Part shown: positions 1 to 20,468 of the stretch, one piece after another
How the letters are laid out: each line of letters starts with the position of its first letter
How positions within the stretch are numbered: position 1 is the stretch's first letter
Origin: Nitrospira sp.
Lineage (GTDB): Bacteria; Nitrospirota; Nitrospiria; Nitrospirales; Nitrospiraceae
Direction of reading: 5' to 3'
Assembly: GCA_023248215.1 (NCBI GenBank)
Contig: JAHFEW010000041.1
Span: forward strand, 1-38,328
Length of the DNA: 38,328 bases
Translations under genes and position numbers: made by a program
The notes under the pieces: generated by a model
Database searches by the model: none
What the model was told of the DNA's origin: nothing
What the model saw: only the letters and a program-made list of their open reading frames with translations

Positions 1-246
1 CACGCCATCGTTCATACGCACCGCAGGAGTCAGACGCTTATCGTCCAACTGCACGACCTGGCGAGCGAGCCATCGTCCATAAAAACGAAACGCCAGGACA
101 TAGATGCAGGCCGCCGCGACGACCAACCAGAGACCGTTCACCTTTTCATGGGGATTCACGAGACCGGTGACGAAGGCAAGAGAGGTAGCACCCAGTATAG
201 CGAGCAGAGCCCATAGGGCGAGCTTTAAGACAGGCATGCGCGGCAT
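1..246 (-). CDS. cstA: Carbon starvation protein CstA, N-terminal part (runs off the window)
   Basis: Reading the minus strand from the ATG at 244-246 gives 82 codons with no stop before the window edge. The product has a hydrophobic first helix, then a second segment containing VNGLWLVVAACIYVLAFRFY, followed by a LDD-x-R-x-TPA-x-R-x-NDG stretch. This is the signature of the N-terminus of the CstA family, inner-membrane peptide/pyruvate permeases induced on carbon limitation. The usual family length is several hundred residues, so most of the gene lies outside the window. A second ATG at 235-237 is an alternative start. A broken copy of this same 5' end occurs at 1375-1605. The family call rests on recalled sequence pattern; only the N-terminus can be judged. 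Confidence 0.82.
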   Translation of the reverse strand, partial: MPRMPVLKLALWALLAILGATSLAFVTGLVNPHEKVNGLWLVVAAACIYVLAFRFYGRWLARQVVQLDDKRLTPAVRMNDGV

Positions 247-253
247 ACTAACA
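238..253. repeat. 16-nt core repeat at cstA start, copy 1
   Basis: GCGCGGCATACTAACA. This core covers the cstA start codon on the minus strand. It recurs with one or two changes at 627-642 and 1597-1612, the other edges of the inserted toxin-antitoxin segments. Confidence 0.6.
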
Positions 254-371
254 ACCCGCTGGTCGCTTGTAAATCAAGGGTCTTCTCGCTATTTTCATGG
301 AGTCTGGCGAGTTTAGGGGTGGCTTTCAGCTGGGTTTTGTGGCCCTAGACTTCCACCGCAGAGAGGTGACC

Positions 372-557
372 ATGCCTTCAGCTAAAGAACAGATTACCAA
401 GATTCTTCAGGACCAGCCTGATGATAGTTCCTACGATGAGATTCTACGGGAATTAGCCTTTGCACGGATGGTCGAAAAAGGACTGGTGGATTCCGACGCA
501 GGAAGGACGATCAGCCACGAAGAGACGGGGCGCCGCATCAAGACATGGCGGAACTGA
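372..557 (+). CDS. Small antitoxin paired with a ParE/RelE-type toxin
   Basis: A 61-residue acidic, helical protein starting at the ATG at 372, preceded by a purine-rich ribosome-binding site (GAGAGGTG). An upstream in-frame ATG at 297 lacks such a site. The body contains SSYDEILRELAFARMVEKGL followed by a DSDAGRTISHEE segment and a C-terminal tail ending TWRN. This matches a common class of small antitoxins that sit directly before ParE-family toxins. The next reading frame starts inside it at 545 and encodes the beginning of such a toxin, so the two were translationally coupled. The toxin is broken, which leaves this antitoxin orphaned. The role in neutralising a toxin and repressing its own promoter is family knowledge, not shown here. 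Confidence 0.7.
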   Translation: MPSAKEQITKILQDQPDDSSYDEILRELAFARMVEKGLVDSDAGRTISHEETGRRIKTWRN

Positions 558-640
558 CCTGGACCGCTGAAGCCGAAGATGGCTGCGCGACATCCACGAC
601 TTCATCGCGCAAGATAAATATCGCACGCGAGGCATCCTAA
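545..640 (+). pseudogene. ParE-type toxin remnant, frameshifted and truncated
   Basis: The ATG at 545 overlaps the end of the antitoxin by 13 nt, the usual antitoxin-toxin overlap. The first codons read MAELTWTAEAED, a typical ParE/RelE-family N-terminus. The frame then breaks: if one T is restored after position 580, the text continues WLRDIHDFIAQDK, as expected for ParE. In the actual frame translation ends at the TAA at 638-640. ParE similarity disappears around 618, and the DNA from about 627 is a copy of the cstA-leader core repeat. The gene therefore lost most of its length as well as its frame. A functional toxin cannot be made from it. Confidence 0.75.
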
Positions 641-642
641 CA
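627..642. repeat. 16-nt core repeat, copy 2
   Basis: GCGAGGCATCCTAACA. It lies exactly where the ParE remnant stops resembling a toxin, and shares the core found at the cstA start (238-253) and at the truncated cstA copy (1597-1612). Following sequence is also loosely alike in copies 1 and 2 (CGCTTGTAAA versus CGCTTACAAA). Confidence 0.55.
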
Positions 643-687
643 ATCTGTCGAGCGCTTAGCGCTTACAAAGCGAGGCGGTCGCTTTGT

Positions 688-716
688 TTGCGTCTCAATC
701 ACAATGTGATTACAAT
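688..716 (+). promoter_or_regulatory. Sigma70-type promoter of mazEF
   Basis: A -35-like TTGCGT (688-693), a 17-nt spacer and a -10-like TACAAT (711-716) lie just upstream of the mazE start at 740. The -10 box overlaps the operator-like repeats, as expected for an autoregulated toxin-antitoxin operon. Assigned from consensus fit only. Confidence 0.5.
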
Positions 717-729
717 GTGACGCCATTGT
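700..729. promoter_or_regulatory. Operator-like inverted repeats before mazE
   Basis: CACAATGTG (700-708) is a nine-base palindrome. It is followed by a perfect inverted repeat, ACAATG (712-717) and CATTGT (724-729), with a six-base spacer. The word ACAATGTGA occurs twice, at 701-709 and 712-720. These repeats overlap the proposed -10 box and end next to the GGAGG ribosome-binding site (730-734). They are the natural place for MazE/MazEF binding, by analogy with known AbrB-fold antitoxin autoregulation. Confidence 0.6.
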
Positions 730-739
730 GGAGGCCCGT

Positions 740-991
740 ATGAAAGCGCATATCGTCCGGATCGGCAACTCAAGAGGTATCCGTCTCCCAAAGACCTTGC
801 TTCAGGAGGCCCAGCTTGAAGATGAGGTCGAACTCCAGGCTGAACCAGGCCGGATTCTGATTTCCAAGACAGCTCAGCCGCGAGCCGGATGGGCTGAAGC
901 CGCTCGACGCATGCGAGCACGAGGTGAAGATCGCCTACTCGATCCACTGCCCCAGACTCGATTCGAGAAGGAGGAATGGAAGTGGCGGTAG
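740..991 (+). CDS. mazE: MazE-like antitoxin, AbrB/SpoVT fold
   Basis: The product is 83 residues when started at the ATG at 740, which has GGAGG five bases upstream; a GTG at 728 would place the start before this site. The first 45 residues, KAHIVRIGNSRGIRLPKTLL and the following acidic VELQ strand, match the swapped-hairpin AbrB/MazE DNA-binding fold. The C-terminal half is charged, consistent with the toxin-binding tail. The downstream toxin starts before this gene ends (982 versus 991). MazE-family proteins bind MazF to block its RNase activity and repress their own operon. The operator-like repeats upstream fit that role. Confidence 0.88.
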   Translation: MKAHIVRIGNSRGIRLPKTLLQEAQLEDEVELQAEPGRILISKTAQPRAGWAEAARRMRARGEDRLLDPLPQTRFEKEEWKWR

Positions 992-1320
992 TGCAGGCAG
1001 CGGCGACCCGCGGTGATGTCTACCTCATTGAACTTAATCCTACCCGAGGCAGTGAAATCCGCAAAACAAGGCCCTGCCTGATCGTCTCTCCTGATGAGTT
1101 GAATGAGCATCTCCACACGGTGATCGTTGCGCCAATGACCACCGGAGGACAAACCTATCCATGGCGTGTGCGATGCCGATTCCGGAATCGAGTGGGATTC
1201 GTCGCAATAGATCAGCTCCGAACGGTCGATAGTGAGCGTCTTGTCAGGCGTCTTGGAAGAATCGTCCCCGGGACCCTCACAGCAGTTCTTGCGGTCTTGC
1301 AGGAAATGTTCACACCGTAA
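982..1320 (+). CDS. mazF: MazF/PemK-family endoribonuclease toxin
   Basis: The sequence contains RGDVYLIELNPTRGSEIRKT, then RPCLIVSP, VIVAPMTT and VGFVAIDQLRTVD, the conserved blocks of MazF/PemK mRNA interferases in the right order. The length (about 112 residues) is normal. The start is ambiguous: ATG at 976 lies only one base after the AAGGAGG at 968-974, whereas GTG at 982 has seven-base spacing, so 982 is preferred. It overlaps the end of mazE by 10 bases, giving coupled translation. MazF toxins cleave single-stranded RNA at short sequences when the labile antitoxin is depleted. This pair looks intact. Confidence 0.9.
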   Translation: MAVVQAAATRGDVYLIELNPTRGSEIRKTRPCLIVSPDELNEHLHTVIVAPMTTGGQTYPWRVRCRFRNRVGFVAIDQLRTVDSERLVRRLGRIVPGTLTAVLAVLQEMFTP

Positions 1321-1374
1321 TTCCTCACTAAGCGTATACCCATCGCAAGCTGATCGAATACATAGCCCTGTCGT

Positions 1375-1605
1375 TCAACACACCACCGGGTTCACGCGCT
1401 GGTTATTGGGATCGACGACCTGCCGGGTAATCCAACGGTCATAGAAGCGAAAGGCGAGCACATAGATGCAGGCCGCCACCACCAGCCAGAGACCGTTCAC
1501 TTTTTCATGGGGATTCATGAGACCGGTGACGAAGGCCAGGGAAGTCGCGCCAAGAAGAGCGAGAAACCCCCAGAGCATGTGTGTTAATGCCGACATGCGC
1601 GGCAT
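1375..1605 (-). pseudogene. Truncated duplicate of the cstA 5' end
   Basis: From the ATG at 1603-1605 the minus strand encodes 76 residues that align along their length with the cstA start at 1-246. Both share GATSLAFVTGL, NPHEKVNGLWLVVAACIYVL and AFRFY. The copy ends in VNPVVC and a TGA at 1375-1377. Nucleotides across the stop still resemble cstA (TGTTGAACGACAGGG against CGTATGAACGATGGC), so the stop arose from a one-base deletion. Similarity fades about 15 bases later. It is therefore a broken partial copy, not an independent small membrane protein, although a short hydrophobic peptide could still be made. The two copies bracket the ParE-remnant and mazEF modules. Confidence 0.8.
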
Positions 1606-1612
1606 CCTAACA
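1597..1612. repeat. 16-nt core repeat, copy 3
   Basis: GCGCGGCATCCTAACA at the start of the truncated cstA copy. It is the third member of the core repeat set (238-253, 627-642) marking the borders of the inserted region. Confidence 0.6.
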
Positions 1613-1651
1613 CAGGAAAGAAATGAAGTGTACAGAGGTGGAGCTTCCGCG

Positions 1652-1693
1652 AACAGGTGGGCATTTTCTCTCAACCGCATCTGCCCACCTGTT
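1652..1693. repeat. Perfect 12-bp inverted repeat (hairpin)
   Basis: AACAGGTGGGCA (1652-1663) and TGCCCACCTGTT (1682-1693) are perfect inverted copies with an 18-base loop. No T-run follows on either strand, so a classical intrinsic terminator is not clear. It lies between the truncated cstA copy and the end of the three-gene operon, where it could act as a bidirectional stop or be a mobile-element scar. Confidence 0.5.
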
Positions 1694-1727
1694 AGGTAAC
1701 CGGATCTCGAACTTTATACGCAAGAAG

Positions 1728-2186
1728 TTACAAATGCGGTTTGAAGTGGGTCCTTGCCAGATTTGCCAGTGCAGTGGCCTTCATTTTACGAGCAGGCTTA
1801 TCATTTGGCCAGCCAATGACGTTAGCATGGCGAGGATGAGGACGCGGGTGTTTCTTAACTTCAAGGTCTTGTGCTGAGAAATCCGAACCCTTCAAATCTC
1901 CACGTGCCAGTATGGGCCGACCATCTTTTCTTGGTCTCGCCACATACCAATCACCAAGCCACCAAATTTTTTCCTCCGTGCATGAGGCAGTTCTGTACAC
2001 AGATATATCTCCCCCTTCTTTGGGCATAAAGGCCGCAGCCTTAACGATTCCCTTCTCAATACTGAAATGATCTTTGGAGAAGATGAACCGGGAGATATCT
2101 TCGGCTGGATCGACGCGAGCAGGGACTCTCTCAAATCTTGAGAAAATAATTCGAAAGAGTGCTCGCAATGGTCTTGGGAAGTTCAT
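1728..2186 (-). CDS. Uncharacterised protein, third gene of TIGR04255-type operon
   Basis: The product is 152 residues from the ATG at 2184-2186, which lies inside the preceding gene (56-base overlap). A longer frame to 2240 is possible. Features include SRFIFSKDHFSIEKGIVKAA, an acidic patch, WWLGDWYVARP, and a C-terminal segment with PRPHPRHANVIGWPNDK followed by a basic helix. I recognise the RHAN-x-IGWP segment as recurring in short hypothetical proteins found beside other small accessory genes, but know no function. No signal peptide or membrane segment is seen. The overlap with the second gene indicates one transcript and coupled translation. The base composition is AT-richer than the flanking regions, suggesting acquisition as a block. 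Confidence 0.62.
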   Translation of the reverse strand: MNFPRPLRALFRIIFSRFERVPARVDPAEDISRFIFSKDHFSIEKGIVKAAAFMPKEGGDISVYRTASCTEEKIWWLGDWYVARPRKDGRPILARGDLKGSDFSAQDLEVKKHPRPHPRHANVIGWPNDKPARKMKATALANLARTHFKPHL

Positions 2187-2619
2187 TGATGAACTTTTCT
2201 TCACCGTAGAGCTTTCGGCTTGCTCCAATAATGCCGGCATAGATCAATCTTGGTCCCGAAACCGTCAAGGAGAATATCTTGTCTTTACCTAGATTCCACT
2301 CCAAGGCCAGCTCACCGTCAGGCTCAGGCACAATGCTCGGCTCCTGGATATTTCCAGGAAGCAGGTCAACAAGTCTAAGAGTCCATAACCTTGATGATCT
2401 GGAGATAGGATTTGCATTATAGCCATCCCAGCCCTCATCAGAACATCTAGTTGAGACTTCTTGTACCTGATCTTTGAGACCAGTTTGCCAACCCAGCGTC
2501 ACAGGCTTGCTCGCATGTTCCCGTGCACTCTGAAGGAGATCCTGAATTGCCCTAGATTCCGGACTGATTCCCTCATTGACTTGCCAGATGATGGCAGGGG
2601 GCTGCTCGTATTTGATCAT
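2131..2619 (-). CDS. Uncharacterised protein, second gene of TIGR04255-type operon
   Basis: The product is 162 residues and appears soluble. The central part reads SDEGWDGYNANPIS, followed by LRLVDLLPGNI and the strand-rich EPDGELALEWNLGKDKIFSL, then a GPRLIYAGIIG segment. A WDGY motif followed by a PDGE-LALEW block is a recurring pattern in small accessory-genome hypotheticals, but I know no biochemical role. Its ATG (2617-2619) overlaps the stop codon of the upstream gene by one base (TAATG), and its 3' end overlaps the third gene. Such tight packing argues that the three products act together. Confidence 0.72.
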   Translation of the reverse strand: MIKYEQPPAIIWQVNEGISPESRAIQDLLQSAREHASKPVTLGWQTGLKDQVQEVSTRCSDEGWDGYNANPISRSSRLWTLRLVDLLPGNIQEPSIVPEPDGELALEWNLGKDKIFSLTVSGPRLIYAGIIGASRKLYGEEKFINELPKTIASTLSNYFLKI

Positions 2620-3356
2620 TATCTAAACAACTCCTTCGTCTTCTCAGTGATGCACTTATCAAAAACCCTGTTCTTGAGATCGCGAAGTTTCGAAAGTATA
2701 ACCCAAATATCTTGACTCCTCGGTTCCAGATTAACTGACCTAGAAACATCCAAATCTAGGAGAATGGAGGTAACATTTGGGCTTTTCGAGGGTTGTGGCG
2801 CTTGTGTAATTATAGCCTTTGCATCGAATTCAGGAAAACCGATCACGATTCTTGAAAGGAATTCTTCCATAAGTTGGGATAGTCCGTTGGGTATTCTTGG
2901 AGGCTCGGCCAGATATTCCTCCAATTCAAACATCTTCTCCGGAATTTCAATAGAGTTTATGTACCGTAGCGCTAATCTCGTCACTTGAATAGGCTTTATC
3001 CCAGCCACATAAATATCCCACAGAGGCTGTGCCTCTGTTATCATCGAATCCCATGTTTTGTAAGGACGAAGGCGATTAAAGGTAAAACCATCGAGCCTAA
3101 ACTGCACCAACTGCTTCTCATCTGTTGACCAAAAAAGAATCCCATCGGGTCCCAAGTCCTTCGTCTCAGATACGGGGCTTGTCCCTTCTTTGAATTCGAC
3201 CTTTCCTTCCCATCTATGTCGCAATTTCTTTGTAGGATATTGCAACCTAATCTCGTCATGCAGTTTCTCTAGATGTGAGAGCTCTACGCCAGAAGGTAAC
3301 TCTACCCTGATATCTATCAAGGCCTCTGTGATAGGTGGATTGCGAAATGTTTCCAT
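2619..3356 (-). CDS. TIGR04255-type protein, first gene of three-gene operon
   Basis: The product is 245 residues, starting METFRNPPITEALIDIRVEL. The N-terminal PPI-x-EALIDIR motif and overall length match the TIGR04255 family, defined as sporadically distributed with no known function. Further features are a predicted strand LVQFRLDGFTFNRLRPY, a WDIYVAGIKPIQVTRLALRYINSI segment around residues 110-135, and an ILLDLDV strand near the C-terminus. No catalytic motif is obvious. It is immediately followed by two small coupled genes. Patchy distribution, AT-rich composition and position beside toxin-antitoxin modules fit an accessory or defence-type unit; that role is inference. Confidence 0.78.
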   Translation of the reverse strand: METFRNPPITEALIDIRVELPSGVELSHLEKLHDEIRLQYPTKKLRHRWEGKVEFKEGTSPVSETKDLGPDGILFWSTDEKQLVQFRLDGFTFNRLRPYKTWDSMITEAQPLWDIYVAGIKPIQVTRLALRYINSIEIPEKMFELEEYLAEPPRIPNGLSQLMEEFLSRIVIGFPEFDAKAIITQAPQPSKSPNVTSILLDLDVSRSVNLEPRSQDIWVILSKLRDLKNRVFDKCITEKTKELFR

Positions 3357-3716
3357 GCTAGGAAAGGATGGATTCGAGAAGACAACCGAGAGGCAAACTC
3401 AAAGGAAACCTCATTGACCCAGAGCGTACATAGAGTGAAAGATACTTTACCCAACTGTTCAAAGTAAATGTACATTCCTTCTGCCAAGCATCATTTACGG
3501 CCGCAGGTCTCTATTGATTTTATAGGCTTTCCTGATTGATGGTATAAAATATGTCGGCGGATTCCGAGACCAATAGCTGATGGCTAATTGCTGATAGCAG
3601 GAACGGGAATATGGCGGCTAGACTGTCATCTATTCCGCAAGCTTCTTGAGGGCTCGGCTAGGGCGACGATTCGCTTCGGCCAGTGCTGCACGGAATTTAT
3701 TCCGACGCGTAGTCTC
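3357..3716. other. Intergenic region, no gene assigned
   Basis: About 360 bases between the TIGR04255-type gene and the TfoX-domain gene, which both run on the minus strand. The part nearest 3356 is AT-rich and should carry the operon promoter; I see several weak boxes but none convincing. Near 3645-3716 the minus strand reads ETTRRNKFRAALAEANRRP and continues to a stop. That stretch is in frame with, and directly after, the TfoX gene stop codon, so it may be a decayed former C-terminus. Confidence 0.4.
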
Positions 3717-4079
3717 TTAATCCGGCACGGCTACACCTTTCGTTTTGCGCTTCTTGGGCGGCTTTGACTTGGCGCACTCGACGGCTTCGTCGAGCCATGT
3801 GGCGAGACCCGATGTCGTGCGACAGCCGGCTGGGCTGACGAGGAGAAATCCCCTCATCGGCTTGCCGGTGATGTCCATCACACTCGCGTGAGTCTTTTTC
3901 AAGAGCACCTCGTATCGATCCGGTGTGACACGGATCATCAAGCGCCTCTTGTGAATCCCGCAGCACATATGGCCGTTGAGCATGAAGCACAGCCCCCCGA
4001 ACATGCGCTTCTCTTCCACGCCTCTGCGCGTCTGGAAATAGCGACGGATCCGCTCGGCTAGTTGTTCGTCATACGCCAT
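3717..4079 (-). CDS. TfoX N-terminal domain protein
   Basis: The product is 120 residues. EEKRMFGGLCFMLNGHMCCG near residues 22-42, a VTPDRYEVLL segment and KPMRGFLLV match the TfoX/Sxy N-terminal domain fold. The protein consists of this domain only and lacks the C-terminal DNA-associated domain of full Sxy. It ends in a lysine-rich tail (KPPKKRKTKG). Single-domain members are common and mostly uncharacterised, so a role in competence should not be assumed. In-frame sequence continues after the TAA stop for about 28 codons, hinting that the protein was once longer. It stands alone, with the next gene divergent. Confidence 0.82.
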   Translation of the reverse strand: MAYDEQLAERIRRYFQTRRGVEEKRMFGGLCFMLNGHMCCGIHKRRLMIRVTPDRYEVLLKKTHASVMDITGKPMRGFLLVSPAGCRTTSGLATWLDEAVECAKSKPPKKRKTKGVAVPD

Positions 4080-4359
4080 ACCACGACCTCATTGCCGCGC
4101 CACTATCGGCGCCTATTCACAGCCGAATCGACCATCGGCCCAGCTGACTGCTGGCCCGGCGATCACGCCTTGTTGGAGATAAATACAGGCCCGAATCATA
4201 ATCCACGAGCTAAGCGACGTCACCAGATTCTTTGCCTCCGCCGCGAACGTGAAGGTGCTGAATAAAGCGAGGCTCTGAATGGCCAAGGAGGCCTGCCCCA
4301 ACGGCACATCTCTCAGCCTAGTTTGCTTCCGCCACCCATTACGATAGATCATAGCCGCC

Positions 4360-5376
4360 ATGCGTATTCTCAAGTGGCTGTTCGGTGTGCTCATTCTGCT
4401 TGTCATCTTAGGCGCGGGTTATCAGTTCGTCGGCATGGTGCTCGACCGAGCGCACTACCCGCCTCCCGGCCAGATGGTTGATGTCGGCGGCCATCGGCTC
4501 CACCTCTATTGCGTTGGCAAAGGAAGCCCTACGGTCGTGCTGGAGGCAGCGGCGCCTGGCTGGTCGCTATATTGGAGTCTGGTGCAGCCGAAGGTGGCGA
4601 AGGTGACGAGGGTCTGTGCCTATGATCGTGCCGGCCTCGGATGGAGCGAGCGTGGCCCGTTGCCTCGTACCGGACAGCGGATGGCGCGAGAACTCCATCA
4701 ATTGCTGAAGCGCGCAGACATCTCCGGCCCCTATATCCTCGTGGGGCACTCGCTCGGTGGCTTCGTCGCCAGACTGTACCGCCAGGAACATCCCACCGAT
4801 GTCGTCGGTATGGTCCTGGTCGATGCGGGACATGAATCGGAAATGCGGCAGGCCGAGTTCAGAACCTTCGTCAACACCGGCAAGTCGATGCTTCCTGCCA
4901 TCCGCGCGATGACGATCCTGGGCATTCCACGACTTTTCGCCTCGTTCGATAGTTTGCCGCCGTTTTTAAGTCAGCAGGAGGAGAAAGTGCCCGAGAAGGT
5001 TCGACCAATGCTGCGTGCCGGCTGGCTACGGACCAGCTATCCCAGGACGCTGAGTGATGAAGGCGACGCGCTGGTGGAGACGCTGGAACAGGTGCGCCGC
5101 ATCGGCCCACTTGGCGATCTCCCTCTAGTTGTCCTGACTGCGACCGGCCCTGTCTGGTGGCCAGACATACCAGGCGCCGTGAACCCCACCAAGTTTAGGC
5201 GAATGTGGCTAGACCTTCAGACTGATCTCACGAAACTTTCCACCAACAGCCGCCAGGTCTTAGCCGACGAGAGCAGCCACTTCATTCCATTCGACCAACC
5301 CGCCCTGGTCATCAAGGCCATTCGCCAAACGATCACCCTCACCCGTCAGGCCATCCCGCCGCCACCGCGGCGATGA
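4360..5376 (+). CDS. Alpha/beta hydrolase (lipase/esterase-like), membrane-anchored or exported
   Basis: The product is 338 residues. Residues 1-28 form an N-terminal hydrophobic segment (ILKWLFGVLILLVILGAG) that probably anchors or exports the protein. The hydrolase core contains HRLHLYCVGKGSPTVVLEA, CAYDRAGLGWSE, the nucleophile elbow GHSLGG (Ser131), LVDAGHESE (a candidate acid) and DESSHFIP (His307). These give a complete serine-hydrolase triad arrangement. The substrate cannot be deduced, although the fold group includes esterases and C-C hydrolases. The gene stands alone between a divergent TfoX-domain gene and a convergent glycosyltransferase; 37 bases separate it from the latter's stop. 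Confidence 0.87.
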   Translation: MRILKWLFGVLILLVILGAGYQFVGMVLDRAHYPPPGQMVDVGGHRLHLYCVGKGSPTVVLEAAAPGWSLYWSLVQPKVAKVTRVCAYDRAGLGWSERGPLPRTGQRMARELHQLLKRADISGPYILVGHSLGGFVARLYRQEHPTDVVGMVLVDAGHESEMRQAEFRTFVNTGKSMLPAIRAMTILGIPRLFASFDSLPPFLSQQEEKVPEKVRPMLRAGWLRTSYPRTLSDEGDALVETLEQVRRIGPLGDLPLVVLTATGPVWWPDIPGAVNPTKFRRMWLDLQTDLTKLSTNSRQVLADESSHFIPFDQPALVIKAIRQTITLTRQAIPPPPRR

Positions 5377-5413: not shown

Positions 5414-6979
5414 TTACGATCGACGGTCGGTTTCTCCGATCGGCAGCGCGGGAGATGGCCGGACCCGTTCATAGATCTGGTAGCGGCCGACCTTATGCAC
5501 CAGACGGATCTGCCCCCTTTCAACCGAAGTCTGATAGATCCCGGCCCAGCGTCCAAATTCTCCGACCACCACATAATCCGGATTGGCACCCAGCGCATCA
5601 TAGGAGAGATGGCGTTTCTGCTTCCACATTTGTGGAATGAACTCCACATTGAGTTGTGCCGGCGGGTAGTGATAGCGCCGGTTCAGCAGAAACAAGAGTT
5701 CGCTTTCATAGGTTTCGATCATGGCATCGGCCGGCACGTGGCCGTGCAAGAAAGCAATCACCTCTTGAACCGCCGTCCCATCCTCTCGAGCCCTAAATGC
5801 ATAGCGTGCCTGCACCGCCATCCAGAGGGATATGACTGCCAGGAGCACTACCCCAACACTTTTGAGCTGCGCTATTCCCACTTCTCTGGCGCCCATACGC
5901 GACCAAAGGGACATGGCCAGGGCTCGGACGTCATACCCCTGACTCCAGTCGTAGAGGAGCGTCACGACAAATGGTGTCGAAAGGAACCACGCAGGAAAAG
6001 CATAACGAGCCCCGCCCAGCGAGAGAAAAAAGAACCAGCCAAACCAGCTGACTGAAAATATCAGCAACATGACGCGGACCGCATCAGTCAGCTGGAACGG
6101 AGTGCGACTCCGCCACTGCCTGACCATGGTCCATATCGCATAGCCTAATCCACAGATGGTGGGCATTAGATAGCTGAGGGTAAAGACGAGGGCATCAAGC
6201 CGAATTCTCGGCACCAATACGATCGCCGAAGCTTGCAGGAGCCCGGGCATTGGCGGCACGGGCATGGTACGTCCTTGCAACACCAGCAACTTCAGTAAGC
6301 CCAGGAGGTATAACACCGCCCAGCCGCCAGCCGCACTGCTTACCAGCAGCGCCGTGATCCGTCGTTCACGTCGCAGAACACAGAGGAGACCGGGCACCAG
6401 CAATGCCAGGGTCCAGAATGGGCGCACCTGCACTTTGCTCATGAGCGCCAACCCCCAACAACTGATGGCCCCTACCCACCAGACCTGATGCCGCTCAACC
6501 AGGAGCAGACACACGGAGCCGGCTAGGAAGAAAAACACCATGGGCATTTCCCCCAAAACCTGCCGCCCCATGATGAGGGGATGCATCTGCCAGTTGGCGG
6601 GAAGGAAGAGCACCAGCGCCAGGGTACCGAGCGCCACATTGTGGTTGTACAGTTTCGAGGTGAGGTAGTAGAGCAGGCCCAGCGCGCCGAAGGCATAGAG
6701 CAATTCCACGAGTCTCGCTTGCCAGATGCCGATGCCGAACAGGCGAAAGCCGGCTGCAATAGACGCGACCACGGGGAAATGCCCCGCAAGAATGGGCGGG
6801 GCCGGCTGGCCCTCCAGCAAGCAACCATAATGACCGGTTTCCACCCATTGACGAGCCACACAGAGGGTCCAGCCTTCGTCCCACCAAAGTGGTGGAGTGA
6901 TTTCCAACTCAAACGCACCCATCACCAGCGCGGAGACGAGGAGGAAGAGCCCGATGCCAACCCGGCCGATGCTCATCAT
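5414..6979 (-). CDS. GT39/ArnT-like membrane glycosyltransferase
   Basis: The product is 521 residues, with about ten hydrophobic segments in the first 400 residues and a soluble C-terminal part. After the first helix comes LEITPPLWWDEGWTL (Asp34-Glu35), the acidic pair in the first periplasmic loop that is typical of GT39/ArnT/PMT-type GT-C enzymes. These use polyprenyl-phosphate sugars to glycosylate lipids or proteins on the outer face of the inner membrane. The C-terminal domain contains VPADAMIETYESELLFLLNR, a pattern seen in bacterial GT-C families. It is the last gene of the minus-strand glycan cluster, separated from the LarA-like gene by about 390 bases, so it may have its own promoter. 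Confidence 0.82.
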   Translation of the reverse strand: MMSIGRVGIGLFLLVSALVMGAFELEITPPLWWDEGWTLCVARQWVETGHYGCLLEGQPAPPILAGHFPVVASIAAGFRLFGIGIWQARLVELLYAFGALGLLYYLTSKLYNHNVALGTLALVLFLPANWQMHPLIMGRQVLGEMPMVFFFLAGSVCLLLVERHQVWWVGAISCWGLALMSKVQVRPFWTLALLVPGLLCVLRRERRITALLVSSAAGGWAVLYLLGLLKLLVLQGRTMPVPPMPGLLQASAIVLVPRIRLDALVFTLSYLMPTICGLGYAIWTMVRQWRSRTPFQLTDAVRVMLLIFSVSWFGWFFFLSLGGARYAFPAWFLSTPFVVTLLYDWSQGYDVRALAMSLWSRMGAREVGIAQLKSVGVVLLAVISLWMAVQARYAFRAREDGTAVQEVIAFLHGHVPADAMIETYESELLFLLNRRYHYPPAQLNVEFIPQMWKQKRHLSYDALGANPDYVVVGEFGRWAGIYQTSVERGQIRLVHKVGRYQIYERVRPSPALPIGETDRRS

Positions 6980-7367
6980 TGACCGATACTCGTCATTTGC
7001 ACCCGGAGAGCTCTGCCAGATATGGAGAGAGGATAGGCCGCCCTAAAGTGATGTCGCATCATTTCTTAAGCCCGATATGCGTACAACATGATGTTTTGAA
7101 ACCGGCCGGGAGAATACAGGGGCATGCAGACCGCATCCACTTGATAGTCGAAGCCCTGCGTCTTCGACATCGAGAGTGAGAGAATCGATGTCCTGTTCCG
7201 GCAACTGCCTGCGGATCACCTCTGAGAGGACGAGGGCCTCGACCATAATGATGTCCTTATGATGTACTTCGGCTTATGTGGGTAGTAGCGATTTATGCGC
7301 AAGGATTCGGGATTGGCCTGATCGACATGAAAAAATCCAGATGCCGCGATTCATGGCGCCGTACCGC
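6980..7367. other. Intergenic region, no gene assigned
   Basis: About 390 bases between the LarA-like and GT39-like genes. The only open frame here (7043-7246, minus) encodes a 67-residue peptide with no recognisable features and a composition expected by chance. I see no convincing promoter, RNA gene or repeat. Confidence 0.4.
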
Positions 7368-8702
7368 TCATGCCGATGCAGGCAGTCGTTGGGGATGGCG
7401 ACTGTCCGCCTCGACGGCTTGCGGCTCGGTCGCTCCGCTCGGAATGAGAAACGGAGCGCAACGGTAGACCGCCACGGTCACGGCTCCCTCTCCATGATGC
7501 GCCAGCAGGGCGGCCTTCAGCGTCGTCCAGTCTCCATACCATTCGGCATGGGGAAACAGCGCCTTCAAGTCCCATGGCTTCAAACCAGGTGATAAGACCA
7601 TCAGGTGGTGCTGTTTCTGTCGGATCAATTTGGCCACCGTTCGCATCTTCTCGAATGGACGGTCCAGATCAGCGAGTCGAAAGTGCCCGATGCGCCGGGC
7701 AATGCGCGACCAGAGCGGGCTGGCCACAGGAAATAATTCATGGGTACCCAAACCGAGAGGGCACGCGGCAATCACGACCCTGGACGCCCCCTCCATCGCG
7801 CGCTCGATCGGCCACATCCCTCGATCCTGGGCGAATTGCCAGCTGGTGTCGAAGGGATACATATCCGCCACCACGACATCGGCCTGAGGCAACAAGGACA
7901 CCCCATACATCCGCTGTGCCGCGCGAACGCCTTCCTCATGTGCCTGCACGACATCGCCCGCAAAAAGACCATTGATCTCCCGCCGGTGATTGAGTGTGAC
8001 ATTCGCAATAAAGTTCAGCCCTACCTTTCGAGCCACGGCGACCATATCGTGACGCAACTCCGTGTGAATCGAGCCTCCGCGCTCGCGGGAACCGCGCAGG
8101 TAGTCATGCATCATCCTGGTCGTCTCAACGCCGCAGACCGCCGGGAGAATGATCTTGGCACCGCCGGAAAATCCGGCTATCGGATGGGGATAGATGCACC
8201 CCACCCCGATCTTGAGGTCGCACTCCATCACGGTGCGATTGATTCGGAGCGGCAGGCCGCCCGGGGACATCCCGAGATCCACTAGGTCCCCATGGCTGTC
8301 ATGCGCCATCACTCGTATCGCCGGCGAAAGGTCCGATCCCACTTTCTTCCCCATGTCTTCACCGGAGGCCGGAGGATGCGTGCCGCCCGCGAGCATGACT
8401 GTGATCGCTTGAGGCGGGATGCCTCCACTTGTCACTTCTTCGACGAGCAACGGAAGGAGGTCGGCAGCAGGTGTGGGTCTGGTGAGATCGTCAACCACAA
8501 TGGCGGCCTTGGTTTTGCCCCTTGCGATCTCGGAAAGTCGCTGCGTGCCGATCGGCCGACTCAATGTGTCTCGCATCACTTGAGCCGTCAATGCCGGGCT
8601 GTCCGGAGGGCCGACCTCGATGACTTTCCAGGAAGGTGGAAAGTCGATCGCCAGCGTTTCGTCCCCGAACCAGGCTTTCGTGCGCAAATACACGTCACTC
8701 AT
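7368..8702 (-). CDS. LarA-family protein (nickel-pincer 2-hydroxyacid racemase/epimerase family)
   Basis: The product is 444 residues, close to the LarA length. Motifs visible in order are DDLTRPTP (Asp72, Arg75), AGGTHPP (His109), YPHPIAGFSGGAKIILPAVC (His173, Lys183) and MMHD (His199). They align within one residue with the Lactobacillus plantarum LarA residues Asp72, Arg75, His108, His174, Lys184 and His200, which bind the nickel-pincer nucleotide and substrate. The catalytic apparatus therefore looks intact. The family acts on many 2-hydroxyacids, so lactate should not be assumed as substrate. None of the cofactor genes larB, larC or larE lies in this window. The start overlaps the end of the upstream GT2 gene by four bases, placing it in the glycan operon. 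Confidence 0.87.
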   Translation of the reverse strand: MSDVYLRTKAWFGDETLAIDFPPSWKVIEVGPPDSPALTAQVMRDTLSRPIGTQRLSEIARGKTKAAIVVDDLTRPTPAADLLPLLVEEVTSGGIPPQAITVMLAGGTHPPASGEDMGKKVGSDLSPAIRVMAHDSHGDLVDLGMSPGGLPLRINRTVMECDLKIGVGCIYPHPIAGFSGGAKIILPAVCGVETTRMMHDYLRGSRERGGSIHTELRHDMVAVARKVGLNFIANVTLNHRREINGLFAGDVVQAHEEGVRAAQRMYGVSLLPQADVVVADMYPFDTSWQFAQDRGMWPIERAMEGASRVVIAACPLGLGTHELFPVASPLWSRIARRIGHFRLADLDRPFEKMRTVAKLIRQKQHHLMVLSPGLKPWDLKALFPHAEWYGDWTTLKAALLAHHGEGAVTVAVYRCAPFLIPSGATEPQAVEADSRHPQRLPASA

Positions 8703-15006: not shown

Positions 15007-16002
15007 TTAGTCGGTGGAGAGGGAGCGATCGACACCCTTCGCGACAACCGCCAGACAGGCGAGCCCGAGCGCGATCCAGACAAATTCTCGAAAGCGTCGC
15101 AGCAGCGCGAAGGTGATACCTGTCACCTCGCCATAGCCGAACGCGGTCAGCAAGAACAGGTTCCCGGCATCTTGCGCTCCCAAGCTGCCGGGGATGAAGA
15201 ACGTTCCGCCCTTGATCAAAACTGAGAGAGCGCCGATCGCTACGGCGGACATCATCGTAATGGGTTGTCCCAGGCAGACGATCATGACGAATACTTCCAA
15301 GGCTTCGGCCAGCCATCCAAGGAGAAAGAGTCCGGTCGATAACAAGAAAGCCGATCGCCGTTGTGCGTAGAAGTGGGCGATGGTGCGATCCAATTCGAGG
15401 AGCTTTTCCTCGCGCGACTCTAGGTAGTGCAACCGCAATCCGACGCGGCGCAGGACCTTCAGAATCCAGGAAAACATGCCCTGTCGTTGAACGATGACAA
15501 AGGCGCCAACCCCGAACAGCAGCAACCCCATACTGACCAAGCCCGCCGTGATGGTCTGCCCGGCCGATCCGCCGGCGCCCAACAACCAGAACCCCAACCC
15601 AATCCCGGCCAAGATGAAGAGAATCTGAGCGATCGTCATGGTGGTTTTGGCTGTCACCACCGACGCCAACCCTTCCACCAGCGGCACCCCCTGTCGTTTA
15701 AGGAGGAAGGCCTTCAGCGGTTCTCCGCCCACGTAGGCCGTGGGCGTAGTCATGTTCACAACTTCGCCGGCGGTGCGAATTGCCAGCACCTGCCAAAACG
15801 GAACGTCCTTCGCCCAGCGGCCCAGCGTCACGCGCCAGCCGTAGGCTTCCAGGACGTACATGAGGAGAGAGGGCAGCAGGATCATCAACATTGCGGCAGG
15901 ACCGAGTTGCGTCACCGCCTCATAGATGCGGTCGATCCCGATGTGCCAGATCAGTGCGGAAAGAGTCAGCGTCCCAAGAAGAAGGAGGGCCGCTTTAAGC
16001 AC
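15007..16002 (-). CDS. UPF0104/AglD-type integral membrane protein (LPG synthase-like flippase domain)
   Basis: The product is 331 residues with about eight hydrophobic segments. NMTTPTAYVGGEPLKAFLLK near residues 83-102 and a later FIPGSLGAQDAGNLFLL are the two signature loops of the lysylphosphatidylglycerol synthetase transmembrane/UPF0104 family (YbhN, AglD, HpnL). Members are linked to lipid flipping or lipid-carrier handling. Its start overlaps the stop of the CDP-alcohol phosphatidyltransferase fusion gene by eight bases. It could therefore move the lipid made by that enzyme, which is inference. It is the last gene of the headgroup operon; a gap of about 180 bases separates it from the GT2 gene. 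Confidence 0.85.
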   Translation of the reverse strand: MLKAALLLLGTLTLSALIWHIGIDRIYEAVTQLGPAAMLMILLPSLLMYVLEAYGWRVTLGRWAKDVPFWQVLAIRTAGEVVNMTTPTAYVGGEPLKAFLLKRQGVPLVEGLASVVTAKTTMTIAQILFILAGIGLGFWLLGAGGSAGQTITAGLVSMGLLLFGVGAFVIVQRQGMFSWILKVLRRVGLRLHYLESREEKLLELDRTIAHFYAQRRSAFLLSTGLFLLGWLAEALEVFVMIVCLGQPITMMSAVAIGALSVLIKGGTFFIPGSLGAQDAGNLFLLTAFGYGEVTGITFALLRRFREFVWIALGLACLAVVAKGVDRSLSTD

Positions 16003-17449
16003 GGGCGCGTGCCGAAGGTCGAATGACCCACACCATCAACAGCCAAAACACCGTTGAGCCGAGCGCGGCCATCCACAAAAACCAGTCGAGCTTGTCCAAT
16101 ATCGCGAAGAGGAACACCACCACGGAGAAGTCTCGGCTCGCCACATTCTTCAGAATGAAGTCGGACCAGGCCGCCTGCTTGGGCGTATTCCACCCACGCG
16201 TGGCGCCGATTTTTTGCGCCTTCGTGACCAACCAAAACGACATTGCGTTGCCGAACATAGCCGCGCCGCCCAGTACCAAGGGAACCCAGGCTCCATCCGT
16301 ACCCGCCTGCCGGAGGTAGGCCCCGCAGGCGATCCCGGCAAAAATGGCGATATGCACCACATTGTCCATGGCGATATCCAGCCAGGCGCCGAAAGGCGAT
16401 TCGGTAAAAGTCAGCCGCGCCACCTCGCCGTCGCAACAGTCGATGACGGCCGCCAATTGAAACAATAACGCGGCGATGATCCCGGCTTGATAGGTGCCTA
16501 ATCCGAACCCGACGGCCGAGAGCAGTCCGACAGCCGTTGCAACCATGGTGATGGCATTGGGCGAGCATTTCATCCATAAGAACGCTCTCGTCAGAAGGCG
16601 CGAGAAGGTCCGATTGAAGTACCGATCGACGAATCCCTCGGCCTCTCCCTTGAGCGAGCGAAAGAGGGTGCGTTCTGCGACGCCGGCACTCGCCTGGTCC
16701 CAGACGTCTCGATACCAGAGGCCGGCATTGGAGGCGGCCGCCACGACCCGCACGCGCCCTTCCGCCGCCGCTCGTTCCAGCCAGCGGCGCACGGGAATCA
16801 TGCCCAGCGGATCCGTCGCTTCACCGATCGCACAAGACGTTGTCTCGTTCGGCGGATTCAGAATGCTCGCCGGCAACACCACCAAATCGGCCGCCACCTG
16901 GTGGCCTTCATACGCAGTGTGGTGGTGAAAGGAGATGAGCCGGCCTTCCTCAAACGCAACGGCTGGGTTCCGCCGACCCATCGCCGGTTCGACCGGACCG
17001 GCTTCGCGCGTCACGACCACTGCTTCGCCGTTACGCACGGTCTGCCGTAAGTGCTCGATCAACTTTTTTGAAAACACCGCCCGTACCCCGGCAATCAAAC
17101 AGAAGCCGCGCACCTCGGTAGCCAGCGATTCCCACGTGCGCGGATCATCGAGTGGGAACTCCCGGACCGGCATCCATCGAACGGGAATGGTGACCCGTGC
17201 TCCCCGCGCCAGCGTATGTTTGAGCAACTCTTCATCGGCGCCCGCCAGGACGATCAATTGGCGAATGCCTGCCCCCTGCAGCGTGAGCACCGTGCGTTGA
17301 AAGAGACTCAGGCCCCCGATGAGGGTGAGCGGACCGACGTCGGTCAACCCACGCCCAAGACGATCACCAAAGAGACCTGCGCCCGGCAACAGAATGGCCG
17401 TGCTCAGTCCCTGTAATTCAGCGCCGCGTTCCAGAGTGCTTTCGCTCAT
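15995..17449 (-). CDS. Fusion of degenerate nucleotidyltransferase and CDP-alcohol phosphatidyltransferase
   Basis: The product is 484 residues from the ATG at 17447-17449. Residues 1-240 resemble an NTP-transferase fold (STAILLPGAGLFGDRLGRGL then LTLIGG), but the usual GxGxR...PK signature is missing. Residues 270-480 form a membrane domain with the complete CDP-alcohol phosphatidyltransferase motif: Asp337, Asp340-Gly341, Ala344-Arg345, Gly354, Asp358 and Asp362, beginning at DCCDGEVAR. The domain order matches the inositol-phosphate cytidylyltransferase/DIPP synthase fusions of thermophiles. The degenerate head probably relies on the separate nucleotidyltransferase encoded 22 bases upstream. 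The enzyme should transfer a CMP-activated headgroup to a lipid or polyol. The substrate is inferred from neighbours to be aminoethylphosphonate-like. Confidence 0.83.
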   Translation of the reverse strand: MSESTLERGAELQGLSTAILLPGAGLFGDRLGRGLTDVGPLTLIGGLSLFQRTVLTLQGAGIRQLIVLAGADEELLKHTLARGARVTIPVRWMPVREFPLDDPRTWESLATEVRGFCLIAGVRAVFSKKLIEHLRQTVRNGEAVVVTREAGPVEPAMGRRNPAVAFEEGRLISFHHHTAYEGHQVAADLVVLPASILNPPNETTSCAIGEATDPLGMIPVRRWLERAAAEGRVRVVAAASNAGLWYRDVWDQASAGVAERTLFRSLKGEAEGFVDRYFNRTFSRLLTRAFLWMKCSPNAITMVATAVGLLSAVGFGLGTYQAGIIAALLFQLAAVIDCCDGEVARLTFTESPFGAWLDIAMDNVVHIAIFAGIACGAYLRQAGTDGAWVPLVLGGAAMFGNAMSFWLVTKAQKIGATRGWNTPKQAAWSDFILKNVASRDFSVVVFLFAILDKLDWFLWMAALGSTVFWLLMVWVIRPSARARA

Positions 17450-17471
17450 GACAACCAGTGTCTCGCGGAGG

Positions 17472-18191
17472 CTACAGCCGCGGCAGGATCTCTCGCTCCG
17501 CCCGCGTGATATCCTCGGGAAAATCGATTTCTGTCCAGGGCAGCCCCCCGATTTTTTCATGCCCGACTTTCACGTCCTGAAAGTATTGCAGCAACCCGTC
17601 CTCGTATTCCATCTCCCATCGCCCTTGATCGATGTAGCTCTTGAGCGAGCCGATCACGTGGGCCGTATCGGCTCGACGCACTTTCAGAAATCCCACGCCC
17701 TCTCCTGCGATATCGTACCGCTCGGGCATCTTTTTGCTCAAGGCAATCACCCGTCCACCCTGGACCACCACCATACATTCCTCGCCGGTTTGCTTCACCG
17801 TATCATCCATCAGCAGACAGTTCGTGAACGGCGAGTCCACCAGACGGCGCAGGATCTCACGGTGGAACAATACATCCGCATCCATAATCACTACGTCGTC
17901 GGAGAGCGCCGACCGGGCGATCCACAGCGACGAAATACTGCCGCGGTGGAACTCTTCGTTCACCAGATAGGAAATGCTCACACCCCGGTGTTGCGTGCCG
18001 ACCGCGGCCCGAATCATCTCCTGCTTGTACCCGACCACAATGGTGACGTCTCTGATCTGGACGCTGGCCAGCACCTCGAGATATCGGGACAGCAGCGTCT
18101 GCCCCCCGATCTCGATCAAACATTTCGGCTTATGTTGCGTGACCGGCCAGAGGCGCTTGCCGACTCCAGCGGCCAGGATGACAGCTCTCAT
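17472..18191 (-). CDS. Nucleotidyltransferase, PntC-like (CTP:phosphonate/phospho-headgroup type)
   Basis: The product is 239 residues. It starts MRAVILAAGVGKRLWPVTQH followed by KPKCLIEIGG, the full GxGxR...PK nucleotide-binding signature that the neighbouring fusion lacks. VIMDADVLF (Asp104, Asp106) is the metal-binding pair. The length and motif spacing fit the sugar/choline-phosphate cytidylyltransferase group to which PntC (CMP-aminoethylphosphonate synthesis) belongs. Its start overlaps the stop of the PhnW-like gene by four bases (ATGA), placing it directly after formation of the amine. Activation of 2-aminoethylphosphonate with CTP is the most economical role. A sugar-1-phosphate or other alcohol phosphate remains possible. 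Confidence 0.82.
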   Translation of the reverse strand: MRAVILAAGVGKRLWPVTQHKPKCLIEIGGQTLLSRYLEVLASVQIRDVTIVVGYKQEMIRAAVGTQHRGVSISYLVNEEFHRGSISSLWIARSALSDDVVIMDADVLFHREILRRLVDSPFTNCLLMDDTVKQTGEECMVVVQGGRVIALSKKMPERYDIAGEGVGFLKVRRADTAHVIGSLKSYIDQGRWEMEYEDGLLQYFQDVKVGHEKIGGLPWTEIDFPEDITRAEREILPRL

Positions 18192-19288
18192 GTGTGCACA
18201 GCAGCGCCTGCAAGCACCTGCTCGAAGGCCGTGAGAAATCCTTGGATGTGCGGTTCAGTCAAGGCGCCCATGTTGGCAATGCGGAAGATCTTCGATTCCA
18301 ATTGCCCCTGCCCGGCGTAAATGACATACCCACGATCCTTCAGCTGATCGTGCAACGAGGCGTACGTGACGCCAGAGGGCAGATGAAACGCCGTGATCGT
18401 GTTCGATTGAGATTCCGGCGGCAGCAATGCCTTGACGCCCAATTGCCCCATGCGTTCCCGGATCCTGGTGGCAGTCCGCCTATACCGCTGCGTGCGATTG
18501 GCGACCCCCTCCTCCAACAATTCGTCCAAGGCTTCTTCAAACGCATAATAGACTTGAACGGCCGGGGTAAAGGGCACGGTCCCTTTGCCTTGATCGTCGA
18601 CATAGTGAGTCATGTGGAGATACCACGATCGCTTGGGATAGCCTCGCATCCGCTCCAGAAACCCCTTGCGAAGGAGGACGAACGAGACACCGGGAAAGCC
18701 TTGGATACACTTGCCGGCAGTTCCCGCCACCATATAGATGTGCGAGCCGGCAATATCGATCGCTTCACCCCCGAGGCCGCTGACGGAATCGACCACAAAC
18801 ACCCGGTTCTGACTATCGACGACCTCCGCAATCTCCTTGATGGGATTGATCAAGCCGGTGGTCGTCTCGTGATGCACCATGGCCACCGCATGAACCTCGG
18901 GGTGCTGGCGTAACGCCAACCGTACTCGCTCAGGATCCGGCTTGATGTGCCACTCCGACTTGAGTTCAGACACGCCGAGTCGATGCAGACCGATCATGTT
19001 GGAGAGCCGCTCGCCATAGACGCCGTTGTTGAGCACGAGCATGCGCTTCCCCGTCGGAAGGCAGGACATGACGGCGGACTCCACCGCAGCGGTGCCTGAG
19101 CCGGTCAGTACCACCGCAATATAGTCGGCTTCGGCCCCGGGCACGAAGGCCGTCAATAATTTCTGTTGAATTCGACCCAAGAGGTCGGAGAACTCGGACT
19201 CTCGATGGCAGATATCCGGACGCATCAACGCCTGCCGCACCCGTTCGCTCACGTTCACCGGACCTGGATTCAAAAGTATCATGTTCAT
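18188..19288 (-). CDS. phnW: PhnW-like 2-aminoethylphosphonate (or related) aminotransferase
   Basis: The product is 366 residues, the normal length for class V aminotransferases of the PhnW type. It shows LLNPGPVNVSERVRQAL at the N-terminus, LTGSGTAAVES, MVHHETTTGLINPI, VVDSVSGLGG (Asp167) and AGKCIQGFPGVSF (Lys193, the expected PLP lysine, at almost the same position as in Salmonella PhnW). PhnW interconverts 2-aminoethylphosphonate and phosphonoacetaldehyde with alanine/pyruvate. Behind a decarboxylase that forms the aldehyde, the biosynthetic direction is likely. A taurine-forming sulfoacetaldehyde aminotransferase is the main alternative, since the decarboxylase also resembles sulfopyruvate enzymes. 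Starts at 19288 and 19282 are both possible. Confidence 0.83.
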   Translation of the reverse strand: MNMILLNPGPVNVSERVRQALMRPDICHRESEFSDLLGRIQQKLLTAFVPGAEADYIAVVLTGSGTAAVESAVMSCLPTGKRMLVLNNGVYGERLSNMIGLHRLGVSELKSEWHIKPDPERVRLALRQHPEVHAVAMVHHETTTGLINPIKEIAEVVDSQNRVFVVDSVSGLGGEAIDIAGSHIYMVAGTAGKCIQGFPGVSFVLLRKGFLERMRGYPKRSWYLHMTHYVDDQGKGTVPFTPAVQVYYAFEEALDELLEEGVANRTQRYRRTATRIRERMGQLGVKALLPPESQSNTITAFHLPSGVTYASLHDQLKDRGYVIYAGQGQLESKIFRIANMGALTEPHIQGFLTAFEQVLAGAAVHT

Positions 19289-19351
19289 GCCTCAGGCTGT
19301 GGATCGGGACTGAGCGGAGCGGCCCCACACATCGCACTCAGCACACAGGTG

Positions 19352-19930
19352 CTATTCAATGGCTTTCATGAACCGAGCGGTAATAGCCGGCGGCTCATGT
19401 TGGACCCGGCCGGCATCCTCGACGAATTCGTTGACCTTGACCAGCAACATGCTCGGCCCGTCTTTTTTCAACAGGTCTTTGAATTCGTACAGGAGATCGT
19501 CCCGGTCGAGAACCCGCTCGACATGGACATACCCTGCAGCCTTGGCCACTTTCTCCAGCGGAACGACGTTGGAAATCGTCGGCTGATTACCCGTCGTTCC
19601 ATACACTTCATTGTCGAACACCACATGAATGAAATTTTTCGGCTTCAAGGCACCCACCGTCGCCAGGGTGCCCATCCCCATGAGCACATTGCCGTCGCCG
19701 TCGAATACGATGACCTGCTTGGCGGGCTTGGCCAACGCCACACCCAGCCCGATCGCCGCGGCATTCCCCATCGACCCGATCATATAAAAGTGGGTCGGCC
19801 GATCGGCTATCTTGTGCGCTTCACGAGACGGAAATCCATTGCAGACGATGACCGGCTGGTCGGTCAACAATTCAAGCAACACAGCCATGGCCTGTGCCCG
19901 GCTCTGCATGGTGCCTTCTTCCGGCCTCAT
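19352..19930 (-). CDS. TPP-dependent decarboxylase, C-terminal (PP-domain) subunit, phosphonopyruvate/sulfopyruvate type
   Basis: The product is 192 residues. The thiamine-diphosphate/Mg motif is complete: FDGDGNVLMGMGTLATVGAL (GDG at 78-80) then PKNFIHVVFDN (Asn107) and VYGTTGNQPT. This is the C-terminal half of phosphonopyruvate decarboxylase. Here it is a separate subunit, as in the ComD/ComE sulfopyruvate decarboxylase, rather than part of one chain of about 380 residues. Its start overlaps the stop of the N-terminal subunit gene by four bases, giving stoichiometric expression. With the partner it should convert phosphonopyruvate (or sulfopyruvate) to the corresponding aldehyde plus CO2. 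The GTTGNQPT tail is closer to what I recall from the sulfopyruvate enzymes. Confidence 0.82.
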   Translation of the reverse strand: MRPEEGTMQSRAQAMAVLLELLTDQPVIVCNGFPSREAHKIADRPTHFYMIGSMGNAAAIGLGVALAKPAKQVIVFDGDGNVLMGMGTLATVGALKPKNFIHVVFDNEVYGTTGNQPTISNVVPLEKVAKAAGYVHVERVLDRDDLLYEFKDLLKKDGPSMLLVKVNEFVEDAGRVQHEPPAITARFMKAIE

Positions 19931-20424
19931 GGATGCAACCCCTTGACGATGCCCTTTTTAATCACGAGCGCAAGCGGAACCCGCTGTTGCATAAATGTCT
20001 GCCCCACCCACCGGAGATCGTCTGCCATGGTCTGCTCCGACAGGGTGCGGTGCGGAATTTTCATGGTATCGAGCAACGGCAGCATCGTCTCGCCCATCAC
20101 TAAGTGTTCCGGCGCATCCTTGCCTTGGAAACCCCGCCATGACACGAGCAAGATGCAGGGCTGTCGATAAATCATGTTCAGGGAAATGAGCGCATTCAGG
20201 GACGTCCCTAGTCCAGAATTCTGCATGAGCACGGCGGGAATCTTCCCGGCCATATAGGCGCCCGCAGCCATGGCGACCGCTTCATCTTCACGCACGGCAG
20301 GGGTGTAGACCTTGCGCGTCATCAGCTCTTCGATGATCCCGCCCAGGATCGAATCGGGCACGCCCGTGAAAAAATTCACGCCCATATCCTGCAGCGCTTG
20401 CACAAACACGTCACTGTCGATCAT
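19927..20424 (-). CDS. TPP-dependent decarboxylase, N-terminal (PYR-domain) subunit, phosphonopyruvate/sulfopyruvate type
   Basis: The product is 165 residues from the ATG at 20422-20424, with a purine-rich GAGGCGGGG just upstream; a longer frame to 20460 runs into the proposed transcription start. It contains NFFTGVPDSILGGIIEEL, VREDEAVAMAAGAYMAG (Glu48, the likely TPP-activating glutamate) and LMQNSGLGTSLNALISLNMI, then VSWRGF. The QNSGLG-x-S-x-NAL block is typical of ComD and of phosphonopyruvate decarboxylase N-terminal domains. It forms the first gene of the operon, downstream of a near-consensus promoter at 20469-20497. It pairs with the subunit encoded at 19352-19930. Confidence 0.82.
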   Translation of the reverse strand: MIDSDVFVQALQDMGVNFFTGVPDSILGGIIEELMTRKVYTPAVREDEAVAMAAGAYMAGKIPAVLMQNSGLGTSLNALISLNMIYRQPCILLVSWRGFQGKDAPEHLVMGETMLPLLDTMKIPHRTLSEQTMADDLRWVGQTFMQQRVPLALVIKKGIVKGLHP

Positions 20425-20468
20425 GAACCCCGCCTCTGTTGCCCGAATGACCGTGCACAAGAGGGCGC

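Follow-up and report, generated by a model that had tools for sequence, protein, structure and literature searches.

In the CmdTAC system, an ADP-ribosyltransferase (ART) toxin and its antitoxin are joined by a SecB-like chaperone that phage capsid displaces (PMC11618068), and a Sinorhizobium prophage is reported to carry the candidate PDC-M32 (PMC12429752). Here, we analyzed a three-gene operon, A-B-C, located in a 38,328-nucleotide stretch of DNA from Nitrospira sp. (contig JAHFEW010000041.1; hereafter the window), in which gene A encodes a protein of the TIGR04255 family. By analogy, CmdTAC is the closest described parallel to this operon. On balance we favour the view of A-B-C as a toxin-antitoxin module in three parts, with C as the toxin, B as the antitoxin and A as a clamp, that most likely acts against phages by abortive infection. 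In such a module, C would be a toxin with an ART-type fold, and B would bind and block it through a conserved WDG core. The saddle-shaped A would hold the Ser/Thr-rich, poorly conserved N-terminal tail of B, acting as a clamp or chaperone that stabilises B and possibly as a sensor; titration or alteration of A, by a phage protein for instance, would lead to the loss of B and let C halt growth. The toxicity of C and its neutralisation, the binding partners, the use of NAD and the phage trigger are what we infer for this module.

A preliminary description, made from the DNA sequence alone, had noted three coupled minus-strand genes, and this observation is confirmed. The ORF coordinates agree with a 1-base overlap (TAATG) at the A/B junction and a 56-base overlap between B and C, where an alternative upstream start of gene C is possible at an ATG at position 2240. 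The span originally given, 2131-3356, leaves out gene C, and the module occupies 1728-3356 (Table 1). As described, the operon is AT-richer than its flanks, with a GC content of 0.46 (0.43 in gene A) compared to 0.593 for window positions 4360-38328. The assignment of the first protein to TIGR04255 was also correct: the match of 136.5 bits (curated cut-off 30) covers positions 2-251 of the 252-position model, and A is the sole copy of the family in the 4.69-Mb source genome. No match to B or C was found among the Pfam or NCBIfam models. The two motif blocks pointed out earlier are present in the window as WDGYNA..ALEW in B and RHANVIGWP in C; across relatives they read WDGYGA...GEI.[FL]EW and RHANI.GWP, respectively. 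As the same gene order and near-identical junctions recur across phyla, the arrangement is not a product of chance.

The A-B-C operon is mobile and was found in about ten bacterial phyla, as seen in data that consist mostly of metagenome-assembled genomes. Relatives of C were identified in 33 of 395 Nitrospirota genomes, and of the 29 that were retrieved, all included B, 28 included C and 27 included A, always in the order A-B-C. A genome-collection scan with a narrower alignment of C gave 43 loci, which are spread over some ten additional phyla and in most cases carry the same operon. Their titles include Nitrospira/Nitrospirae, classes of Pseudomonadota, Desulfobacterales-type genomes, Planctomycetota, Verrucomicrobia, Chlorobi, Bacteroidetes, Gemmatimonadetes, Dehalococcoidia, Thermoanaerobaculia and Nitrospinota. 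The co-occurrence of the three families, on which the idea of a system depends, was borne out by 90 B loci: 75 contained A, B and C in order, 11 contained B and C without A, and in four A and B were present with no C found. Four viral contigs carry A-B-C (L065-L067 and L069). A plasmid search with B and C and a search of phage records with A gave no match. In the 55.5-kb viral contig L067, the operon is located at 5983-7662 between ORFs of 949 and 700 aa. The accessory setting suggested earlier is thus seen in the sporadic distribution of C, in its presence on viral contigs and in the variable site that the operon occupies within the genus.

TIGR04255 itself was present in 81 of the 395 Nitrospirota genomes and in 28 of 274 genomes sampled from the class to which L094, a Pseudomonadales record, belongs. 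Genes 2 and 3 were extracted behind 132 distinct TIGR04255 genes, using simple ORF rules for the calls. The family is not mostly solitary in housekeeping loci, as 81 of the 91 distinct Nitrospirota copies lead a coupled gene pair. These pairs were C-type in 43 cases (32 close and 11 divergent), of a 'QGD..SQ.CDL' type in 16 and of a DUF7689 type in six, in addition to PIN (five), HicA-like (five), HEPN (four), zeta (one) and one other. The junction between A and gene 2 was at most 35 nt in 115 of 122 cases, with an identical 4-nt overlap in 69. Pfam searches assigned gene 3 to PIN/VapC (E 4e-12 and 2e-16), zeta toxin (6e-10), DUF7689 (5e-44) and HEPN (2e-4, scoring above the cut-off); the HicA-like match (0.005) was weak and scored below the cut-off. 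Profile comparison of the gene-3 classes to C linked ART4 at 94% and ART10, via ART4, at 94%, and ART2 more weakly (66% to ART4). The same mixture of gene 3 was found in the sample from the class of L094. The gene-3 family with the pattern 'QGD.[FL]...SQ.CDL' gave no Pfam match; its members (L036, L042, L047, L049, L059, L256, L258 and others) are often located near methyltransferase- or helicase-like genes. The preliminary description had spoken of three unknowns, which is too weak, since C has a predicted ART-like fold and sister operons include third genes from known toxin families.

Behind a constant first gene, the second and third genes are exchanged together. A quick maximum-likelihood tree of TIGR04255 required 20 changes for the twelve class labels, where the minimum possible is 11 and the mean after shuffling is 63.8, and the pairs are therefore inherited yet also exchanged. 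Among the PIN types, L046 is nested in a QGD clade (support 100), L039 in a HEPN clade (95) and L172 in an ART4 clade (98), and the DUF7689 types L038, L045, L051 and L128 fall within the C-type part of the tree. No paper on TIGR04255 or DUF7689 was found in the literature searched, and, as far as checked, the tie of TIGR04255 to swapping toxin-antitoxin pairs is new.

Comparison of the second genes pointed to the N-terminal tail as the part that may meet the first protein. The first 45 residues of gene 2 contain 20.2% Ser/Thr compared to 11.0% later in the protein, a value not reached in any of 2000 residue shuffles, and the enrichment was seen in 22 of 25 gene-2/gene-3 classes. In B proteins encoded with A, the tryptophan of WDG is found at a median position of residue 68 (43-75). 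With other front genes the tail is longer (residue 87-141), and in the few loci without any front gene (n=3) the tryptophan is residue 25, 35 and 46; a short tail is what would be expected in front-less loci if the tail binds the front protein. Other front genes precede B-C in L072, L078, L079, L080 (219 aa) and L085 (239 aa), all from Desulfobacterales-type genomes. These 219-aa and 239-aa genes were considered as divergent TIGR04255 members, which was unsupported by sequence (hhalign <1%).

A third alternative front is found in PDC-M32A, a 375-aa protein in which an N-terminal domain is fused to a B-like domain. B of the window weakly matches PDC-M32A at model positions 272-324 only, with the N-terminal domain absent, and 32 of 45 B relatives match the C-terminal part of the model. 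C of the window (P0003) weakly matches PDC-M32B (E 0.003), as do six of 44 C relatives at E <=0.01. L249 encodes a full-length PDC-M32A at 1435-2580 on the minus strand, with an N-terminal domain ('GTRLPVEVLSDLPAF') unlike TIGR04255, and the gene that follows has the C-like motifs LSVDRSSLT and NPAHSL, recognized by eye. The idea of PDC-M32A as a TIGR04255-B fusion was rejected, as the N-terminal 265 residues in L249 gave an hhalign probability of 0.4% against TIGR04255. The earlier label of an undescribed system has to be qualified, as PADLOC already lists distant relatives of B and C under the candidate PDC-M32, with another front domain. The front gene of the B-C pair is thus also exchangeable, for 219-aa and 239-aa genes or the PDC-M32A domain. 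With less confidence than we attach to the module itself, and somewhat short of even expectation, we suggest that TIGR04255 is a general, non-SecB clamp or sensor that combines with six or more unrelated toxin-antitoxin pairs via a disordered N-terminal tail of the antitoxin, and that B-C may also be armed by these other front proteins.

C was modelled with AlphaFold2 (Table 1) and compared to known structures by VIA-align. The best 19 rows were KptA/Tpt1 (Z 7.5, 92-94 residues, rmsd 2.9-3.5), HopF2 (Z 6.3), Tse2 (Z 6.2, 103 residues), CC0527 (5.3) and RES (4.4), all of which we take to be ART-type folds. NarE (Z 3.2) and C3bot1 (2.7) came next, amid unrelated rows at Z <=3.4. R33 (43/44) and S62 (44/44) are conserved in C and, together with R65, H120 and N122, sit on predicted strands. 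Comparison to viral predicted structures gave no named relative of C, and searching the sequences of A, B, C and the 219-aa protein against solved structures returned nothing useful. The best reading of the model is that C is a putative toxin with an ART fold. The AlphaFold2 model of A consists of duplicated halves rich in beta-alpha-beta units that form a saddle. It matched a guanidino-kinase sheet with Z up to 9.0 (181 residues, rmsd 3.8), and the SecB fold was not among the listed structural matches, which does not exclude such a fold.

A different role for A would be that of a regulator or sensor, a TBP-like DNA or ligand binder that controls the activity of the pair or its transcription and does not grip the tail of B. 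TBP was indeed the best Foldseek match of A (prob 1.00, E 1e-3), and A is common to unrelated pairs. However, the overall superposition on TBP is poor (rmsd >11), the conserved residues E11, R131, N134 and D201 appear unlike a DNA-binding face, and the length of the B tail tracks the presence of a front gene, which argues for contact between A and B. We therefore regard a purely regulatory A as unlikely, and the best reading is that A is a shared clamp or sensor that binds the Ser/Thr-rich tail of B. Far more improbable still is a common accessory operon, for an enzyme or a stress response, in which no component is toxic. It would fit a C without an evident canonical ART glutamate and three genes whose roles are all predicted, but sister operons carry established toxin families (PIN, zeta and HEPN) at position 3, and both the class swapping on the TIGR04255 tree and the sporadic, mobile distribution speak against it.

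The immediate neighbours of TIGR04255 operons (128 proteins) are most often restriction-modification proteins, including ResIII (six) and Methylase_S (five), and DEAD, RmuC, RadC and GmrSD_N are further frequent neighbours. In L045 (L200), a DUF7689-type module is flanked by HsdR and HsdS-like genes, and a HEPN-type module in L033 is surrounded by type III-like genes. The same tripartite module could instead serve the maintenance of islands, prophages or plasmids by addiction, consistent with A-B-C on four viral contigs, with TIGR04255 operons on plasmids and with a variable site shared with other toxin-antitoxin genes. We find this improbable, as the modules placed inside restriction-modification operons (L200 and L033) suit immunity better. 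The accessory setting in the preliminary description thus held, whereas the defence role itself is one that we infer from the restriction-modification neighbours, the carriage on phages and plasmids and the variable insertion site.

Several observations weigh against a toxin-antitoxin module of this kind acting in defence. Ten of the 91 Nitrospirota TIGR04255 genes are without a coupled pair, and some B-C pairs occur without A, which is thus not strictly required. With Z scores that all stay below 8, the ART matches of C may show no more than a common arrangement, and Pfam has no model that ties C to an ART family. With regard to the [R/H]...[S/Y]...[E/Q] signature, R33 and S62 are conserved in C but the classical glutamate is not evident; no conserved E is found on the expected strand, where H120-A-N122 is present instead. 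KptA also lacks this classical signature. Part of the C set was picked by the RHAN motif, and its conservation is therefore partly selected, although H120 is invariant also in the set not selected by this motif. Enrichment beside defence systems, proposed earlier as a test, is suggestive only, as the counts of PADLOC models matched in TIGR04255 flanks (167) and in arbitrary regions of the same genomes (46) include redundant models.

The preliminary description had also reported toxin-antitoxin neighbours and a rearranged cstA 5' end, and both are present. The MazEF pair is flanked by two decayed cstA 5' ends that are 78-79% alike, while an intact cstA is found on contig 46. Window positions 1-4360 form an interval, variable in this genus, that lies between cstA and an alpha/beta hydrolase gene and contains MazEF, A-B-C, a TfoX-N gene and the decayed cstA ends. 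In much of the genus, cstA and the hydrolase gene are divergent neighbours; they are 0.55-0.7 kb apart in seven relatives, and in others the gap reaches 5.5 kb and holds cargo that, by reading, consists of toxin-antitoxin and transposase-like genes. The hydrolase of the window is up to 83% identical to copies from the same genus, and the contig thus does not look foreign. At 297-600, an antitoxin-like gene (MPSAKEQI...) and, after it, the frameshifted remnant of a RelE/ParE-like toxin were recognized by reading, with related sequences at the same site in L241, L242 and L244. Positions 15995-20460, also by reading, may hold a group of phosphonate genes of the 2-aminoethylphosphonate type, comprising a decarboxylase of two subunits, an aminotransferase, a nucleotidyltransferase and a CDP-alcohol transferase fusion.

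Table 1. Features of the A-B-C operon and the surrounding variable interval (window coordinates).
Feature	Position	Strand	Remarks
Gene A, TIGR04255 protein	2619..3356	-	245 aa; constant first component; 136.5 bits; model pLDDT 94.6
Gene B, putative antitoxin	2131..2619	-	162 aa; WDGxGA core and variable N-terminal tail
N-terminal tail of B, candidate A-binding segment	2440..2619	-	residues 1 to ~60; Ser/Thr-rich
Gene C, putative toxin	1728..2186	-	152 aa; predicted ADP-ribosyltransferase-like fold; pLDDT 91.6
RHANVIGWP motif of C	1806..1832	-	residues 119-127; H120 invariant
Decayed copy of cstA 5' end	1378..1680	-	
Second decayed copy of cstA 5' end	19..282	-	internal TGA
MazE-like / PemK-MazF-like toxin-antitoxin pair	728..1320	+	separate cargo of the same variable interval
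Alpha/beta hydrolase	4360..5376	+	delimits the variable interval on the right; close to cstA in most members of the genus

With respect to known families and systems, A is a clear member of TIGR04255 (NCBIfam 'sporadTIGR04255'), a family that itself carries no function. C resembles the ART-fold proteins RES (Xre-RES), Tse2, HopF2 and KptA/Tpt1 in the predicted fold of residues 20-152, but has no detectable sequence relation to them and differs in its motifs (R33, S62 and H120-A-N122). B resembles the C-terminal part of PDC-M32A, and C weakly resembles PDC-M32B; PDC-M32, however, has its own front domain fused to the B-like half, while the front protein here is encoded by a separate TIGR04255 gene. 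If TIGR04255 is such a general clamp or sensor, one sensor fold would arm many effectors in a two-way combinatorial immune platform, and this nameless 'sporadic' family would gain a testable role via swappable toxin-antitoxin pairs, with toxins predicted for many operons, including those of the DUF7689 and 'QGD..SQ.CDL' families. A-B-C resembles TAC systems such as CmdTAC (PMC11618068) in having three genes, for a putative toxin of the ART type, a putative antitoxin whose tail is unstructured and a third protein. In TAC systems the third protein stabilises the antitoxin, and in CmdTAC it senses the phage capsid; by analogy, A may likewise stabilise B. The third protein there is SecB-like, whereas here it belongs to TIGR04255, and the chaperone-addiction region there is C-terminal, whereas the variable tail of B is N-terminal. 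A-B-C would thus parallel the CmdTAC-like chaperone-controlled systems with a different third protein, making phage sensing testable in a new fold.
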